A stretch of DNA of 32,993 nt from positions 1-32,993 of the forward strand of contig PWVB01000134.1 in the NCBI GenBank assembly GCA_003562365.1. Reading direction: 5' to 3'. The stretch is from Anaerolineae bacterium (GTDB taxonomy: Bacteria; Chloroflexota; Anaerolineae; B4-G1; SLSP01). Below are positions 3,070 through 13,540 of this stretch, piece by piece. Position 1 is the first letter of the stretch; each line of letters begins with the position of its first letter. The notes under the pieces were generated by a model. The model was not told the origin of the DNA, did not search any database, and worked only from the letters and a program-made list of their open reading frames with translations. Made by a program: the position numbers and the translations under genes.

Positions 3070-3095
3070 CAAGGGGGCCAGATCGTGCCCCCTTG
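3070..3095 (+). terminator. Putative intrinsic terminator after the CdAR pair
   Basis: CAAGGGGGC - cagatcgt - GCCCCCTTG, perfect 9-bp stem, followed by TTTGCTTG (weak U-tract). Confidence 0.6.
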
Positions 3096-3141
3096 TTTGC
3101 TTGATCACGGCAGTTGCGGAGATGGAGGAGGTGTCGCTTTG

Positions 3142-3564
3142 ATGACAGGAGAGCGGCGGGCGATTCGCGTTCTGATTGCCAAGCCTGGCTTGGATGGACA
3201 CGACCGTGGTGCAAAGGTGGTAGCACGCGCCCTGCGGGATGCGGGCATGGAGGTGATCTATACGGGTTTGCGCCAGACCCCCGCGATGGTCGCTGAGGCC
3301 GCCCTGCAGGAGGATGTTGATGTCGTAGGGCTTTCGATTCTCTCCGGCGCCCATATGGCCTTGGTCCCCCGGATTATGGACGAGCTGGCCCAACGCGACC
3401 TCGAGGATCTGCCGGTCTTCCTGGGTGGGATTGTGCCGCAGGACGATGTTGTCGCGTTGCAGGAACTGGGGATCGCCAGCGTCTTCGGGCCGGGGACCGA
3501 GACAAAGACGATCATCGCCTACATCCGCGAGACGGTGGAGCAGGAGCTGCTTGAGGAGGCGTAG
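3142..3564 (+). CDS. Cobalamin B12-binding domain protein, methylmalonyl-CoA mutase small/C-terminal subunit-like
   Basis: [39 protein letters not shown]...LSGAH...[14 protein letters not shown] (base-off His) and GGIVP motifs. Start chosen at ATG 3142 after GGAGGAGGT. Confidence 0.9.
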
Positions 3565-4585
3565 ACGCCGTCCGGATGGTGCCGCGCTGGCTGAGCGGGC
3601 GCTGGGGGGCAGCCGAGGCGCCTTGGCCCGGTTACTGACCTTAGTGGAGAATGGCCATCCCGAGGGACAAGTTGCCCTCTCTAGACTCTTTCCACGTTCG
3701 GGGCAGGCTCATATCGTGGGCTTCACGGGCGCCACTGGCGCCGGGAAGAGCACCCTGGTCAACCAGGTCGCTTGCGAGCTGCGCGACCGTGACCTAAGCC
3801 TCGCGGTGGTTGCTGTCGATCCCAGCAGTCCCTTCTCCGGTGGGGCGGTGTTGGGCGACCGCCTGCGGATGCGCGACCTGGCTGAAGATCCCGCTATCTT
3901 TATCCGCAGCATGGCTTCCCGGGGGCATCCTGGGGGCGTCGCCCAAGCCACCCGGGACGTGGTGACCGTGCTCGATGCACTAGGGACGCCCGTGATCCTG
4001 GTGGAGACTGTGGGTGCTGGCCAAGCACAGGTCGAGGTGGCGCAGATCGCCCACACCGTGGTGCTGGTGGAGGCGCCCGGCATGGGCGATGACGTGCAAG
4101 CCCTCAAAGCGGGGCTGCTGGAGATCGCCGATATCATCGTGATCAACAAGGCCGACCGGCCTGAAGCCAAGCAGACCCTGCGGGCCATCCGGAGCGCGCA
4201 CCTGGAGGGACTGCGCTTTGGTGACGCTGGTGGACCCGCTGACCTTGGTGAGGAGACCCAGAAGGACCGGTGGACGGTGCCGGTGTTGGAGACCAGTGCG
4301 CTGGAGGGGCGTGGGATCGTCGAGCTGGTGGATGCCATGGGTGCTCATCGGGAGGCTTTGAAGGCCCAAGGGATCTGGCGGGGGCTGCGGGAACGCCACG
4401 CTCGCGCCCAATTGGCGGCGTGGCTGCAGCAGCATCTTCAGGCGCTCATCGACACACACCTGGCAGCTGAGGACCTGGAGATGGCCGTGCAGTCCATTGT
4501 GCGCCGTGACGCTGACCCGGCCTCAGCCGCCCAGGCGCTGGTGGATCGTCTTGTCGAAACCTTGATCGCTCGAGATAGCGGCTGA
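3551..4585 (+). CDS. meaB: Methylmalonyl-CoA mutase-associated GTPase MeaB/ArgK
   Basis: [51 protein letters not shown]...[23 protein letters not shown]...INKAD. Listed ORF start at 3425 overlaps the preceding gene; TTG at 3551 is a plausible start overlapping its stop. Confidence 0.88.
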
Positions 4586-4620
4586 GTCAGCCGATGGAGA
4601 TCCCAGAGGAGAGGAATTCT

Positions 4621-5589
4621 ATGGTGGATGGCGAATGCTACGGTCAGATCGTCCTGTATGGCGGCACCGGATCCCCGGACCTGGCCTCCGAGATTGCCGA
4701 TCATCTTGAGCTGACATTGTGTCCGCGCGAGGTCATCACCTTTCCCAACACGAACCTCTTTGTCCGTTTGGGCTCCAGTGTGCGCGGACAGGACGCCTTT
4801 ATCATCCAGACAACCTCGGCGCCGACCAACGACAACCTGATGGAACTGCTGATCTTCATCGAGACCCTCAAACGGGCTTCGGCGGGGCGCGTGACGGCGG
4901 TAATCCCCTATCTAGGATACGCCCGTTCGGACAAAAAGGATCAGCCCCGGATTCCGATCACGGCGCGTCTGGTTGCCGATATGATTCAAAGTGCTGGCGC
5001 CGACCGCTACATCACCCTGGATCTGCACGCCGGGCAGATCCAGGGTTTCTTCAGCATCGCCGGTGACGTCATCACGGCCTTCCCGCTGTTGGCGGACTAC
5101 CTGCGCAAAAAGGACCTGCAGCACGCCGTTGTCGTAGCTGCCGATTTGGGGTTTGCCAAGAAGGCCCGAGCCTTCGCCACCGAACTGGATCTCCCGGTGG
5201 CCTTTGTCGAGAAACGCCGGGTGGACACCCACACCGAGGCGCTGACGGTCATCGGTGATGTGAACGGTATGGACGCGATCATCGTGGATGACGAGGTCGA
5301 TACGGGCGGCACGGTGTGCGACACGACCTCGGCGCTGGTGGAGGCCGGGGTCAGGGATATCTACGCCTGTTTTGTTCATCCGATTCTCTCGTCCGACGCT
5401 GCCGCGCGGCTGCGTTCGCAGCCGATCCGCGAGATCGTGACCACTAACTCGGTGCCCATCCCGCCGGAAAAACGACTGCCGAATATGACGGTGATCTCCG
5501 TCTCGTCACTGCTCTCCGGCGTGATCCAGCGGGTCCACGCCGGGCGCAGCGTGGGCGAGATGTTCGCTCCCTATCACGGCTACAGTTAA
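4621..5589 (+). CDS. prs: Ribose-phosphate pyrophosphokinase (PRPP synthetase)
   Basis: VIPYLGYARSDKKDQPRIPITARLVADMIQSAGADRYITLDLHAGQIQGFF and PRPP loop AIIVDDEVDTGGTVCDT. Start at ATG 4621 after GAGGAGAGG. Confidence 0.9.
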   Translation: MVDGECYGQIVLYGGTGSPDLASEIADHLELTLCPREVITFPNTNLFVRLGSSVRGQDAFIIQTTSAPTNDNLMELLIFIETLKRASAGRVTAVIPYLGYARSDKKDQPRIPITARLVADMIQSAGADRYITLDLHAGQIQGFFSIAGDVITAFPLLADYLRKKDLQHAVVVAADLGFAKKARAFATELDLPVAFVEKRRVDTHTEALTVIGDVNGMDAIIVDDEVDTGGTVCDTTSALVEAGVRDIYACFVHPILSSDAAARLRSQPIREIVTTNSVPIPPEKRLPNMTVISVSSLLSGVIQRVHAGRSVGEMFAPYHGYS

Positions 5590-6344: not shown

Positions 6345-7151
6345 TCATGGGGCGCTGCGGGCGGCATCCAGCGCCACCCGCAGCGCCTCGACAAAGCGCG
6401 CGGCGGCTTCTGCCGGGGCATCGGCGTAGCTGATGGCATCGATCAGGGCGCTGCCCACGATCACCCCATCAGCAATGCGGGCTACCCTGGCAGCTTGAGC
6501 CGGGGTGCTGATTCCGAATCCTACAGCCAGCGGTTTGTCCGTTGCAGACCGGACCCGGGCGACAAAGGTCGCTAGATCCTCCGAGAGATGATCGCGTGCG
6601 CCGGTCACACCGACCAGCGAGACCAGGTAGACAAAACCGTCGGTGCACGCCGTCACAATGTCAATGCGCGCCGTGTCGGCGGTAGGCGCCAGGAGGAAGA
6701 TGAGATCCAGCCCGTGCGCCGCACAGGCCGCGCGGACGGCAGCGGCCTCCTCGGGCGGGAGATCAGGGACGATCACCCCGTCGATGCCGGCGCGTGCGGC
6801 TTGTGCGGCGAAAGCGGCCACACCCAACTGCAGGATGGGATTGTAGTAGCCCATCAAGACGAAGGGAACGGTGACGCCCTGATGCCGCAGCGCGGCGGCC
6901 TGCTCGAGGCACCGTGTCAGCGTGATCCCGTTGCGCAGCGCCTGCTGTCCGGCTGCCTGAATCGTCGGACCGTCGGCCAGCGGGTCGCTGAAAGGAACGC
7001 CCAACTCGATCAGATCGGCCCCTCCGTCCACGAGGGCGGGAATCAGCGTAAGCGCGCTGTCCCGCTCCGGATAGCCTACCGTCAAATAGGGCATCAGGGC
7101 TGTCCGATCGGCCTGCCGCAACCCTCTAAGTGTGGTCTCGATGCGACTCAT
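6345..7151 (-). CDS. trpA: Tryptophan synthase alpha chain
   Basis: [59 protein letters not shown]...FLLAPTAD...[12 protein letters not shown]. Confidence 0.97.
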
Positions 7152-8398
7152 GCCCGCCTCCCTGAGTGGGGTTGGTCCGATGATAGCTTGTCTCCCAGCA
7201 TCTCGGCGACGGTCTGCATGTCCTTGTCGCCACGCCCGCTGACGTTGACGATGATGAGGGCATCCGCCGGAAGCTGCGGCGCGCGCTTGATGGCCTCGGC
7301 GACGGCATGAGCGCTCTCCAGTGCGGGGATGATGCCTTCAAGCTCACTGAGTCGCTGCAGGGCATCCAGCGCCTCAGCGTCGGTGGCGTAAGTGTAGGCC
7401 GCGCGCGACACCTCGCGCAGCCAGGCGTGTTCGGGGCCCACCGCCGCGTAGTCGAGCCCGGCAGAGATGCTGTCTGTCAGGGCGATCTGACCGTCGGGGT
7501 CCTGCAGGACGTAGGTCTGCGTGCCGTGGAGCACGCCCAGACGGCCTCGCTCCGGATCGGCGAAACGGGCCGCGTGCTGGCCTCCGTCGATCCCGCTGCC
7601 GCCGGCCTCGACGCCTACCATAGCCACAGCTTCGTCGTCCAGAAACGGATGGAAGAGGCCGATGGCGTTAGAGCCGCCGCCGACGCAGGCGATCAGGAGA
7701 TCGGGCAGGCGCCCCTCGGTGGCGAGGATCTGTACCCGGGCTTCCTGACCGATGACCCGCTGGAAATCCCGCACGATCCGTGGGTAGGGGTGGGGCCCTA
7801 GCGCTGAGCCTAGCAGATAGTGGGTGGTGCGTACGTTGGTCACCCAATCGCGGATCGCTTCGTTGATCGCGTCTTTCAGGGTGCAGCTGCCGGCGTCTAC
7901 CGCACGCACCTCGGCCCCCAGCAGCTGCATACGCAGGACGTTGAGCGCTTGGCGTTCGATGTCGGTTGTCCCCATATAGATGACGCACTCGAGGCCCAGG
8001 AGTGCGCAGACGGTGGCGGTAGCTACCCCGTGCTGTCCGGCGCCTGTCTCGGCAACGATGCGCTTTTTTCCCATACGCCGTGCCAGCAGGGCCTGTCCCA
8101 GGGCGTTGTTGATCTTGTGGGCGCCGGTATGTGCCAGGTCCTCGCGTTTCAGATAAATACGCGCGCCGCCCAAAGCATCGCTCAGTCGGTGGGCCGGGGT
8201 AAGCGGCGTAGGCCGGCCGGCGTAGGTTTGGAGCGTCGCATCCAACTCGGCCTGAAAAGCGAGATCGGCGCGGGCTGCATCGTAGGCCGCCTCCAGTTCC
8301 TGAATGGCTGGTGCCAGTATCTCAGGGATGAAGGCGCCGCCAAAGCGACCGTAGTAGGGCCCGTTGGATGGGATGACGGCTGGGTGCGAAGATGACAT
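7148..8398 (-). CDS. trpB: Tryptophan synthase beta chain
   Basis: [20 protein letters not shown]...[49 protein letters not shown]...[15 protein letters not shown]. Start moved from 8539 to ATG 8398 ([11 protein letters not shown]). Confidence 0.97.
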
Positions 8399-8411
8399 AG
8401 GATCTCCTCTA

Positions 8412-9110
8412 CTAGTTATGATCGGGTGGCTGCCCGGTTGCGCGGACGGCTCGGATAAAGGCGCGCACCCGCTCGTGGTCCTTCCGCTTCTGCTTATGCT
8501 CCACGCCAGTGGAGACATCCTCCACGCCAGTGGAGACATCGACTCCCCACGGCTTGATGTGGGCGATGGCCTCCCCCACGTTTTGGGGTGTGAGCCCGCC
8601 TGCCAGCAGCAGGCGACAGTGTGACGCCAGCCACCGGGCGATAACCAGATCGACGCTCAGCCCCGTACCGCCCTTCTGATGAGGTGCGTAGGCGTCGACA
8701 AGCAGTTGGGGTGCGGATGGGTCGGCCGTCAGCCGGCCACGGCGGTAAGTGGCAAATGCTGTTCGGGCCTCCGAGAGACTCTGGGGGCGGAGCGCCTTGA
8801 ACGCGTAGGGGTAGAGCGCCTCTAATAAGAGCAGAGGCTCGGACCCGTGGAGCTGGACGAAGTCCAGTCCGGCTTGAGCGCGGATGGCGCGGATACGCGC
8901 CTCGGGGCTGTCGACGAAGACCCCCACAAAACGTGGCGCCGTTGCCCCCAGGTCAGCGCGGAGCGCCGCGACGATGGCGCCCGCGGCTTCCGGTGCGATA
9001 TACCGTGGGCTCGGAGGATAGAAGATGAAGCCCAGGAAATCGGCACCGGCATCGCTGGCGCACCGGGCGTCCTCCAGATGGGTGATGCCGCAGATCTTAA
9101 TATAGGTCAT
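8412..9110 (-). CDS. trpF: Phosphoribosylanthranilate isomerase
   Basis: [36 protein letters not shown]...[16 protein letters not shown]...GVDVSTGVE; position in trp operon. Confidence 0.95.
8499..8540. repeat. Two perfect 21-bp tandem copies within trpF
   Basis: CTCCACGCCAGTGGAGACATC x2 (8499-8519, 8520-8540), duplicating DVSTGVE in frame. Confidence 0.95.
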
Positions 9111-9946
9111 CGGTCGCCCTTCGGTTCACTCGAAGGCCGGCGGCGGGGCACGGCCTTTCCGGCCCGGACCAGTGCCTGTGCATAGGCACCCGGATCGGCA
9201 GCGGTCACCAGAGCCGTTCCGACCAGCATGGCATCCACGCCGGCGTCGACCAGGCGGGCGACATCGCTGGCGGTGTGGATGCCGCTCTCCGCGACCACGA
9301 TCACCCCTTCCGGGATGCGCGGGCGGAGGGCGAGGGTTGTGTCGAGGCAGACCTCCAGGGTGTGCAGGTTGCGGTTGTTGATCCCGATGGGGGAGGCTCC
9401 TGCCGCGAGCGCGCGCTTTAGCTCGCTGTCATCGTGTACCTCGACGAGCGCCGCCATCCCCAGATCCCTCGCCAGAGCCTGCAGCGTTTGCAGTTCATCA
9501 TCGTCCAGGGCCGCGACAATCAGCAGGATGGCATCGGCACCGACTGCACGGCTTTCGTAGACCTGAAAGGGATCGAGGATGAAATCCTTGCGCAGCACCG
9601 GTACCGGCGTAGCACGCCGGGCGGCGCTCAGGTCATCCAGGCTTCCTCGAAAGAAGCGCGCATCCGTGAGCACGCTCATTGCGCTGGCCCCGTTCACGGC
9701 GTACGCTTCGGCGAGTGCTCTCGCATCGAGCCCGGGGCGCAGAGAGCCTCGGCTGGGTGACGCCCGCTTAATCTCGGCGATCAGCGATACGCCGGGGGCG
9801 CGGAGGGCAGCGCTGAAGTCCCGGTGCGCGTTAAGCGGAGCGGGGAGAGCGGCCTGGGCCTCCCCTCGTCCTGCGGCTTCCTTACGGCGCTGGATCTCCT
9901 GGCGCTTGTGGGCGACGATCCTGTCTAAGACGGTTTCAGCTTGCAT
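9107..9946 (-). CDS. trpC: Indole-3-glycerol phosphate synthase
   Basis: VSLIAEIKRASPSRGSLRPGLDARALAEAYAVNGASAMSVLTDARFFRGSLDDL...VPVLRKDFILDPFQVYESRAVGADAILLI...INNRNLHTLEV. Confidence 0.97.
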   Translation of the reverse strand: MQAETVLDRIVAHKRQEIQRRKEAAGRGEAQAALPAPLNAHRDFSAALRAPGVSLIAEIKRASPSRGSLRPGLDARALAEAYAVNGASAMSVLTDARFFRGSLDDLSAARRATPVPVLRKDFILDPFQVYESRAVGADAILLIVAALDDDELQTLQALARDLGMAALVEVHDDSELKRALAAGASPIGINNRNLHTLEVCLDTTLALRPRIPEGVIVVAESGIHTASDVARLVDAGVDAMLVGTALVTAADPGAYAQALVRAGKAVPRRRPSSEPKGDR

Positions 9947-9949
9947 AGG

Positions 9950-11011
9950 TCACGCGGCATCCGGGGCCGGTGCTTCGGCCTGCCGGTAGTGCTGGCTCAG
10001 CGCCACGAGGTCCGCCAACTTGGCTGCCGCAGCGCCGCTGTCAAGGCTCTCAGCGGCCTTGGCGATTCCCTCTTCAAGATCGGCCGCGGCACTGCCCACG
10101 GTGAGCGCTGCGGCAGCGTTAAGCAGAACGACATCGCGTCGGGCCCCGTGTTCCGATCCCTCAAGGATTGCGCGGGTGATCCGAGCATTTTCCATTGGTT
10201 CTCCCCCTCGCAAGGCTGCCAAGGGTGCCACGGCAAAGCCAAGTGCCCCCGGATTGAGGTCCTCCGTCACGACCTCGCCGCTTGAGCGGCCCACACCGAA
10301 GTAGCTCACCCGATTCGGGCCGGTGGTCGAGAGCTCGTCGAGGTGCCCGTGGCCGTGCACGACGTAGGCCGCTCTGGATCCCAGTCCCCGGAGCGTCTCC
10401 GCCAGCACTTCGGTCAGGTTCGGGTCGTAGACTCCCAGCAGTTGGGCCTGGGCGCCGGCCGGATTGGTGAGCGGGCCCAGGATGTTGAAGATGGTGCGGA
10501 CGCCCAGTTCGCGGCGGGGGCCGATGGCGTGGCGCATAGCCGGATGGAGTTTGGGGGCGAAAAGGAAGCCGATGCCGACCTCATCGATGCAGGTCGCGAC
10601 CTGGTCTGGGCTGAGCTCAAGGTTGAGCCCCAGGGCCGTGAGGACGTCGGCGCTGCCAGACTTGCTGCTGACGCTGCGGTTGCCGTGTTTGGCGACGCGC
10701 AGCCCGGCACCGGCGACCACAAAGGCGGTGGTGGTGGAGATATTGAAGGTGCCGGCTCGATCACCGCCGGTGCCGCAGGTGTCGATAAGATTCCGGCTCC
10801 GGGGCCTCACTCGAGTGGCCGCCCGGCGCATGGCCCGCGCGCAGCCGGTGATCTCATTCACGGTCTCGCCTTTCGTACGCAGTGCGATCAGGAATCCGGC
10901 GATCTGCGCATCGGTGGCCTGCCCGCCCATCACCTCATCCATGACATTCTCGGCCTCTTCAACGGAGAGCGACCTGCCATCCAACAGCTGTGCGATGGCT
11001 TCGCGGATCAT
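9950..11011 (-). CDS. trpD: Anthranilate phosphoribosyltransferase
   Basis: [59 protein letters not shown]...[34 protein letters not shown] overlap with trpG. Confidence 0.97.
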
Positions 11012-11589
11012 GATGTCCTCCTGGTGGTTTGGTATCTGAGAAAATTCTCTAGTATCGTTTTGCCGTGCTCGGTCAGAATGCTCTCCGGATGGAACTGCAC
11101 CCCTACGACCGGCGCGGTCCGATGCTGCAGTGCCATGATCTCGCCTTCTGTGGTAAAGGCCGTGACCTCTAGCGCGGATGGGAGCGGCTCGTGGACGATG
11201 AGGCTGTGATAGCGCATGCCGCTGAAAGGGCTGGGCACTCCGTCAAAGATAGGGCGTTGTGCGTGGTAGATAGGGCTGGTTTTGCCGTGCATCAGGCGTG
11301 GGGCGGCGCTCACCCGCCCGCCAAAGGCCGTAGCGATGCATTGATGGCCCAGGCAGACGCCCAGGATTGGCGTCGTGGTGTACAGGGCCTGGATGAGCGA
11401 CACTGAGATGCCGCCGTCCTGGGGCGTCCCGGGACCCGGGGAGATGATGACCTGACTGGGGTGTAGGGCATGGACTTCGTCCAGGGTGATTGCGTCGTTG
11501 CGGTGGACCTGCGGGTCGGCCCCCAGCTCGCCTAGGTATTGCACCAGATTGTACGTAAACGAATCGTAGTTATCGATGACCAGTAGCAT
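11008..11589 (-). CDS. trpG: Anthranilate synthase component II (glutamine amidotransferase)
   Basis: [24 protein letters not shown]...[12 protein letters not shown]...[17 protein letters not shown]...[14 protein letters not shown]. Confidence 0.97.
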
Positions 11590-13106
11590 TAGACTCCCTC
11601 CTCTGCCATCGCTATGGCAACGCTCAGCGCCTTCGCCTTGTGCAGCGTCTCCTGATATTCGCGGGTGGGGTCGCTGTCGGCGACGATGCCGGCGCCGGCT
11701 TGTAGATAGGCGGTCTTGCCGCGCATCACGATCGTGCGGATGGTGATGCAGGTATCCATATTGCCGTTGAAGCCAAAATAACCGACGGCGCCGGCGTAGG
11801 GCCCGCGCCGTAGCCCTTCGAGCTCGTCGATGATCTCCATCGCCCGGACCTTGGGGGCGCCGCTGACGGTGCCCGCCGGCAACGTGGCCCGCAGCAAATC
11901 GAAGGCGTCAAGCTCGTCGCGCAGGCGTCCCTCCACATGGCTGACCAGGTGGATCACGTGGGAATAGGTCTCGGTGGTCAACATCTCCGGGATGTGCAGC
12001 GAGCCGAACTCACACACGCGGCCCAGGTCATTGCGGCCCAGATCTACGAGCATCACGTGCTCCGCGTGCTCCTTTGGATCGGCCAGCAGCTCGGCTGCTA
12101 GTGCCTTGTCCTCTGCGGGCGTCTTGCCTCGCGGTCGGGTCCCGGCGATGGGCCGCACCGCCGCGGTGCGGCCCTCCAGACGCACCATAACCTCCGGCGA
12201 TGAGCCGATCAAGCAGGTGGGATCGTCACCACCCAGGTTGAGAAAGAACATGTAAGGTGAGGGATTGATCCGCCGCAGCGCCCGGTAGATGCTGAAGGGT
12301 TCGGCCTCGGTGGGACGGATCAGGCGTTGGGAGAGCACGACTTGGAAGATGTCCCCGGCGCTGATATAGGCCTTCGCGGCGCGGACCGCCGATTCATACG
12401 CAGTCTGGCTCATCGTGGATGTCGGAGCCTGCCCGCTGGGGCCGGGGGCCGCGGATTGAGAGGGAAGGGGGGCCTGAAGACGGGTTTCAAGGGCGTCCAG
12501 GTGGGCCAGCGCCTCATCGTAGGCGCGATCCAGGTCCTGTCCTGAGGCGACGGGCGCATTGGCGATGAGCAGCAGCCGATGCTGCACGTGGTCGAAAACG
12601 ACGAGGGTATCGGTGATCAGGAGATGGAGATCGGGCAGCCCCAGTGGATCGTGCGCCACCCCAGGCAGGCGCTCGAAGAACCGTACCAGATCGTATCCAA
12701 GGTAGCCGACGGCTCCGCCGAAGAAGCGCGGCAGGCCGCCGGTGCCGCCTTGGATCGGCGCGATCGGCTGGTAACGCTTTAGCTCGGCCTTTACCACATC
12801 AAGGGGATCCTCGTGTAGCCCCAGATGGCGGGTCTCGATTCCATTATGGTTGCGCAGTATGACTTTACGTTCCCGTGCGATGATCTGCCGATGGGCGTCG
12901 AAGCCCAGGAACGAGTAGCGCCCGATCTGTTCGGCCCGCTCGACGCTTTCCAGGAGGAAACTAGGCCCCAGCTTCCGCAGTTTGAGATAGACCGAGACTG
13001 GCGTCTCCAGATCGGCCGGCAACGCCCGGATGACGGGTACCAGAGCCCCCTGTGCTGCACTTTCGTAGAATTGATCCCTCGACAGCGTGTGCCTTTGTGG
13101 TGTCAT
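11589..13106 (-). CDS. trpE: Anthranilate synthase component I
   Basis: [19 protein letters not shown]...[12 protein letters not shown]...[13 protein letters not shown]...[47 protein letters not shown]...[16 protein letters not shown]. Start moved to ATG 13106 behind GGGGAGGAG. Confidence 0.97.
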
Positions 13107-13141: not shown

Positions 13142-13182
13142 CAAAAAAAACGCCCCTCGTCCCCATAGGGACGAGAGGCGTT
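13142..13182 (-). terminator. T-box-associated intrinsic terminator
   Basis: Minus strand: AACGCCTCTCGTCCC tatg GGGACGAGGGGCGTT TTTTTTG; near-perfect 15-bp stem plus U-tract, located between the T-box motif and trpE. Confidence 0.9.
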
Positions 13183-13237
13183 AGGCTTCCCGTGGTGCCA
13201 CCCTGATTGAGCCTGATGTTCCGGGCCTTCCCGGAAC

Positions 13238-13263
13238 AAAAAAATCGCGTCCTGTGACGCGAT
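13238..13263 (-). terminator. Second terminator-like hairpin inside the T-box leader (or T-box stem III with U-rich linker)
   Basis: Minus strand: ATCGCGTC-acag-GACGCGAT followed by a T7 run (13244-13238), upstream of the T-box motif. Confidence 0.55.
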
Positions 13264-13502
13264 CAGCCAGCTCCACTCTTGCAAGTACAGGCTATGTCAC
13301 ATACGGATTATGCATAACCGATACCCTCAGCCTTGATAACGGCGGCGCTCCCGGCCGGCCCTACCCAGGTCCCCCTGCTCGGGCTGGCAACTCCCCGGCC
13401 CATTCACCCCTGCCGTCTGCGAGTGAGCTCGCACCTCAAGGCCCACCTCTCTGACGCACGTACACGGGCTACTCTTCCGGATCGACGTTATGTCATATTT
13501 GG

Positions 13503-13540
13503 ATTATAGACATCTTACCTGATAATCTGCGACGTGTCAA
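13503..13540 (-). promoter_or_regulatory. Promoter region of the trp operon leader
   Basis: Minus strand: TTGACA (13540-13535), 17 nt spacer, TAAGAT (13517-13512); an overlapping TATAAT at 13508-13503. Confidence 0.65.

Follow-up and report, generated by a model that had tools for sequence, protein, structure and literature searches.

T-boxes with duplicated terminator-antiterminator elements, in which one sensor is followed by two such units, were reportedly described by Vitreschak and colleagues in 2008. For trp genes, tandem T-boxes with full sensors have been seen only in Bacillota (PMC12452182), and in Chloroflexi a trpE T-box was reported from Dehalococcoides (Wels et al. 2008, PMC2494555), so that a Trp T-box is in itself ordinary and to be expected in the genome considered here. 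The RRRxG motif is known from T-box structures, and the 2020 review that covers it lists lineage-specific T-box insertions and elaborations among the open questions (PMC7583486). Among the papers covered by a word search, none joins T-box, riboswitch and Anaerolineae.

The trpE leader and its operon

On the minus strand of the window (the whole stretch of 32,993 nucleotides that was analysed), positions 13494-13164 form a class I transcriptional T-box, matched by RF00230 at full length (Infernal, positions 1-219) with 88.5 bits and E = 6.5e-20; UGG falls in the specifier region, as the sequence-only reading had proposed. The score lies just below the Rfam gathering threshold for RF00230 (93 bits), and the Rfam search at that threshold gave no match for the trpE leader, whereas the T-box is clear at the E-value threshold. 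Six T-boxes were found in the genome at E <= 10 and, judged by their specifiers and downstream proteins, they precede ileS, thrS, trpS, trpE, pheS and valS; since four of the six score below the 93-bit cut-off, a silent default Rfam search means little here. The sub-threshold score might be held to favour a mere chance assembly of T-box-like words, but the E-value across the full model and the conservation of the T-box ahead of trpE and trpS in the class leave that explanation with practically no credence.

A sigma70-type promoter (TTGACA-17-TAAGAT, 13512-13540, minus strand) scored 10/12 in the terminator/promoter scan, the mean promoter score of the relatives' Trp leaders being 10.5/12 vs. 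7.3 in shuffles. It is followed on the same strand by Stem I (13403-13494), in which the RF00230 alignment places the loop E strand AGUA, the AG bulge AGAGAG and the distal loop GGUGCGA, and the leader DNA reads AGAGTAG, then AGAGAG...GAGGTGCGA. The specifier UGG, a Trp codon within GAA-UGG-G, occupies 13400-13402 according to both the sequence and RF00230, and the F-box CCGUUA of the Stem IIA/B pseudoknot is aligned with 13337-13342. The order GAGUG...Stem III...AA corresponds to the RRRxG - Stem III - AA arrangement. Downstream lie the T-box sequence AGGGTGGCACCACGG / AGGGUGGCACCACGG (13190-13204, minus strand, from sequence and RF00230), with the bulge UGGC-ACC at 13200-13194, and the final terminator, a 15-bp hairpin with U8 (13143-13182, minus strand; hairpin at 13182-13149). 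The 5' arm of this hairpin, CUCGUCCCU, is also the 3' strand of the antiterminator in the RF00230 alignment, so that the two structures exclude each other. In the fold of the leader, the final terminator is the minimum-energy structure; when its 3' arm is left out, antiterminator helix A2 (ACGGG/CUCGU) appears, helix A1 being absent from the minimum-energy fold of this shortened RNA. Re-reading the minus strand thus located every T-box element that had been named. The leader has a single RF00230 match and hence one Stem I/specifier domain, not the two of a tandem T-box.

Two other features of the leader were observed. An extra helix, GGGUAUCG...CCGUACC, lies between the F-box and Stem III (window 13335-13282, minus strand); it is common to the class's Trp leaders and absent from the non-Trp T-boxes looked at. 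An imperfect direct repeat on the minus strand consists of TATAATCCAAATATGACATAACG near the promoter (~13509-13487) and CATAATCCGTATGTGACATAGCC midway along the leader (~13317-13295).

Pfam identified all seven genes of a complete trpE-G-D-C-F-B-A operon behind the T-box, as had been read from the sequence. All are on the minus strand: trpE (11589-13106), trpG (11008-11589, GATase), trpD (9950-11011), trpC (9107-9946, IGPS), trpF (8412-9110, PRAI), trpB (7148-8401, PALP, with a putative start codon) and trpA (6345-7151, Trp_syntA). Records from Caldilineaceae, Chloroflexi and Anaerolineae supply the nearest named TrpE proteins, which makes Chloroflexota the most likely phylum of the genome. 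Elsewhere in the window (3085-5589, plus strand), the translations suggest by eye a row of B12-binding small-subunit-like, MeaB-like GTPase and ribose-phosphate pyrophosphokinase-like proteins.

As to tRNA specificity, UGG stands ahead of trpE, and the relatives have GAAUGG ahead of both trpE and trpS. Taken alone, the codon register is ambiguous, the trpE leader having GAA-codon and most other leaders GAA-N-codon, and the alternative register would give GGG (Gly). With U73, the usual discriminator of tRNA-Gly, an A would be expected in the bulge. We adopt the Trp register because the downstream gene is trpE and the bulge base is C. Two tRNA-Trp(CCA) genes are present in the genome (contigs C394 and C283) and both have the expected discriminator, G73, which pairs with the C of the UGGC bulge. 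The C283 copy (L014 1501-1574) is divergent, without an encoded CCA and with an acceptor stem unlike that of the canonical copy, and its contig looks phage- or plasmid-like by eye.

Among the T-boxes of about 60 relatives' genomes, those with a Trp specifier have bulge C in 51/54 cases and U in 3/54, the 65 non-Trp T-boxes being divided between U (45) and A (20) without a single C. In TBDB, 46% of Trp T-boxes have bulge U, which is read as a G:U wobble (PMC7778990). The genome's own trpS T-box (L003 1501-1826, contig C199) has UGGU despite the G73 of tRNA-Trp, nearly all trpS T-boxes of the relatives having UGGC. This U would form a G:U wobble, possibly with a sensitivity differing from that of the trp operon; recognition of another tRNA was rejected in view of the G73 in each tRNA-Trp gene and the common occurrence of U among Trp T-boxes. 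Codon and bulge had been advanced as two agreeing pointers to tRNA-Trp: UGG, UGGC and G73 do match, but the trpS bulge and the TBDB figure make the bulge a softer argument than was claimed. With the RF00230 match, the Pfam genes and the G73 of tRNA-Trp in its favour, the assignment of a Trp-specific T-box ahead of the complete trpEGDCFBA operon is nearly certain.

The internal hairpin and the pairings of the purine string

This account of the leader, correct as to the Trp T-box, was incomplete in that it missed another terminator-like hairpin, which lies within Stem III and is followed by U7; the terminator scan lists both the internal and the final hairpin. On the minus strand, the Stem III purine string GAGUGGAGC (13270-13278) is followed directly on its 3' side by an extra UGGC (13266-13269), complementary to the acceptor end GCCA of tRNA-Trp. 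The internal hairpin, AUCGCGUC-ACAG-GACGCGAU with U7, extends over 13238-13263, the hairpin also being listed at 13243-13264 (terminator scan and leader comparison); its apex GCGUCAC (13254-13260) complements the purine string and is a putative internal antiterminator. At 13207-13212 lie the conserved AA and the 3' side of the Stem III base, whose GCUC is the partner of 13273-13270 (leader comparison). The last seven nucleotides of the purine string (13276-13270) are the strand common to two exclusive helices. Two terminators thus stand behind one sensor as far as the sequence goes, the internal unit having UGGC only and not a full T-box sequence (AGGGUGGNACC) of its own; its predicted antiterminator is without ACC and helix A2.

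In the relatives, the trpE and trpS leaders have a long linker between F-box and T-box sequence, with a GC-rich hairpin and then about 5-7 U, mostly followed by GUU. Under strict criteria, an internal terminator was found in 38/54 Trp T-boxes vs. 0/65 non-Trp T-boxes of the same genomes, and in 5 of 1080 shuffled Trp linkers (0.5%); relaxed criteria gave an internal hairpin in 46 of the 50 leaders that carry the purine-string/UGG motif. The purine string (consensus GAGUGRNRY) lies directly 5' of Stem III and holds the RRRxG motif of ordinary T-boxes, so that its own conservation is expected anyway. Every one of the 38 Trp T-boxes whose internal terminator passes the strict criteria has UGGC (37) or UGGU (1) next to it. 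In six other Trp T-boxes, which lack the internal terminator (L090, L091, L120, L129, L157 and L162), UGG is absent from this place as well. A few have UGG without the strict hairpin; in L075, a trpE leader, and in L172, purine string and UGG are present and the internal terminator is absent, possibly a lost or an ancestral state.

A pattern for the arrangement matched 31 of 399 Chloroflexota genomes, i.e. 30/54 of the source's class and 1/345 of the others, and the reversed pattern matched none; by this pattern the arrangement is largely confined to one Chloroflexota class. In 299 genomes from the phylum to which a Paenibacillus genome belongs, the pattern, tuned as it is to Chloroflexota sequence, had no match. 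The arrangement is present in, among others, a Caldilineaceae MAG (L187) and Leptolinea sp. HRD-7 (L220); Trp T-boxes without the arrangement occur in a Dehalococcoidia MAG (L205), Sphaerobacter sp. (L217), a Thermoflexales MAG (L191) and an Ardenticatenia MAG (L192).

Pairing of the last seven purine-string bases was analysed in 72 distinct leaders, selected on UGG and a T-run. In 63 leaders, the last four bases find full pairing immediately upstream of the conserved AA, vs. a mean of 37 and a maximum of 46 with permuted purine strings; the leader comparison strongly supports this pairing, which forms the base of Stem III. With the internal-hairpin apex, all seven nucleotides considered form at least 6 bp in 57/72 leaders (20% with shuffled apices). 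For this second pairing, 0/500 permutations reached the mean energy of the 72 leaders themselves, and the count was 3/2000 in an earlier set of 45 leaders; like the other permutation figures given here, these treat related leaders as independent and retain the kinship between sequences. Paired changes keep the purine-string/apex helix in L089 (GAGAGGU/GUCUCUC) and L094 (GUGGGGC/GUCCCAC). The purine string pairs better with the internal-hairpin apex than with that of the final terminator (-6.41 vs. -3.65 kcal/mol), a comparison by which a general tendency to match terminator apices was rejected.

In fold predictions for the trpE leader itself, the nascent RNA ending at the hairpin loop adopts precisely the pairing of purine string and apex (-5.9 kcal/mol), the loop of this helix containing UGGC; the internal hairpin alone, once its 3' arm is made, reaches -12 kcal/mol; and at full length this hairpin becomes one arm inside Stem III. 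RNAalifold on a MAFFT alignment returned only pairs between the purine-string/UGGC region and the T-box sequence, none changed on both sides, because hairpins of differing length were misaligned. The model R1 built from that alignment was set aside and per-sequence statistics were computed in Python instead.

One sensor and two possible decisions

The comparison of leaders inclines us to the reading that a single tRNA sensor here serves two successive terminators, of which the first has its own, reduced antiterminator, so that the decision would seemingly be taken twice. The elements, their conservation, the exclusive pairings and the matching tRNA can be read from the sequences directly. Because the purine-string/apex helix precedes the internal terminator, adjoins UGGC and shares bases with that terminator, we infer that helix and hairpin make up an inner antiterminator/terminator pair answering to the same tRNA, with a hairpin that would terminate transcription under tRNA control.

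The course of events could be as follows. The anticodon of uncharged tRNA-Trp would pair with the UGG specifier of the single Stem I/II sensor. On arrival of the polymerase at Stem III, a helix would form between the purine string (GUGGAGC) and the GC.UCAC of the internal-hairpin apex, and the UGGC left beside this helix would take the GCCA end of the uncharged tRNA-Trp; the inner helix, with its bound tRNA, would then keep the internal hairpin, with its U7, from forming. If the tRNA is charged, this hairpin would form and transcription would stop early. Should the polymerase read on, the purine string would swap the apex for GCUC, so that Stem III is closed; the T-box sequence would bind the same acceptor end through its UGGC, and the antiterminator would thereby be stabilised relative to the terminator at 13182-13143. 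Repression of the trp genes may be tighter with two serial stops than with one, which is taken to be the point of the Bacillota tandem T-boxes too.

The internal hairpin might instead belong to an ordinary Trp T-box with a single decision and a long Stem III, hairpin and U-run being structural and non-terminating, which we regard as unlikely. The strong support for the pairing at the base of Stem III agrees with it, as do the Stem III insertions reported for translational T-boxes (PMC7583486) and the position of the hairpin as an arm in the full-length fold; in many leaders UGG also falls within a region of possible Stem III pairing and may have a structural role. A mere arm, however, has no need to keep at least five U directly behind a GC-rich stem, nor would it account for a hairpin found in 38/54 Trp and 0/65 non-Trp T-boxes, and it offers no explanation for the adjoining UGGC/U in 38/38 cases or for the pairing with the apex. 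Constitutive partial termination, or pausing that allows the tRNA time to bind, would be subject to no tRNA control of its own and appears distinctly unlikely: terminators and pauses do share a hairpin with a U-run, and the predicted energy of the internal hairpins has a median of about -13 kcal/mol (vs. about -34 for the final module of the trpE leader itself), but the complementarity of apex and purine string, as well as the association of UGG with the terminator, would then be accidental.

Ribosome-mediated attenuation, with a Trp-rich leader peptide controlling the internal terminator, draws on the trpE leader itself, and on that one sequence only, in which ..Q-E-W-S-W-L.. is encoded just before the hairpin (TTG CAA GAG TGG AGC TGG, ORF 13284-12961). 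Across the leaders, a start codon in the reading frame of the internal UGG is missing from 66/71, and in 56/71 a stop lies at most three codons upstream of it. No conserved, short, Trp-rich ORF was found in this set, and the explanation, very improbable as it is, was rejected. Serial termination under one sensor is the preferred reading.

Comparison with known systems

If this reading is true, it would show how a single tRNA sensor can govern two stops with no second copy of the sensor, and Stem III, besides presenting the purine string, would take part in regulation. Leptolinea sp. HRD-7 offers a complete-genome example open to direct testing.

The trpE leader shares with the Trp class I T-boxes of RF00230 its Stem I, UGG specifier, F-box, purine string, T-box sequence and antiterminator/terminator, as well as its place ahead of trpE/trpS; it differs from them by a second terminator-like hairpin, a second UGGC, an alternative pairing of Stem III and the helix between F-box and Stem III. 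Phylum, gene and mechanism are those of the Dehalococcoides trpE T-box, although the Dehalococcoidia trpE leader compared has no internal terminator. With the tandem trp T-boxes of Bacillota, it has in common at least two serial stops ahead of trp genes, driven by tRNA-Trp, but there each stop has a complete sensor, whereas one sensor would serve both stops here. As a whole, the Trp T-box is a further case of a known type. Similar in plan are the duplicated terminator-antiterminator T-boxes said to combine one sensor with two units, of which the trpE leader would be a variant, its first unit having no full T-box sequence and being folded into Stem III. More tentatively, this unit may be a reduced T-box decision module, peculiar to the Trp T-boxes of a Chloroflexota clade, in which the purine string doubles as antiterminator strand beside a second UGGC and one bound tRNA-Trp is tested twice.
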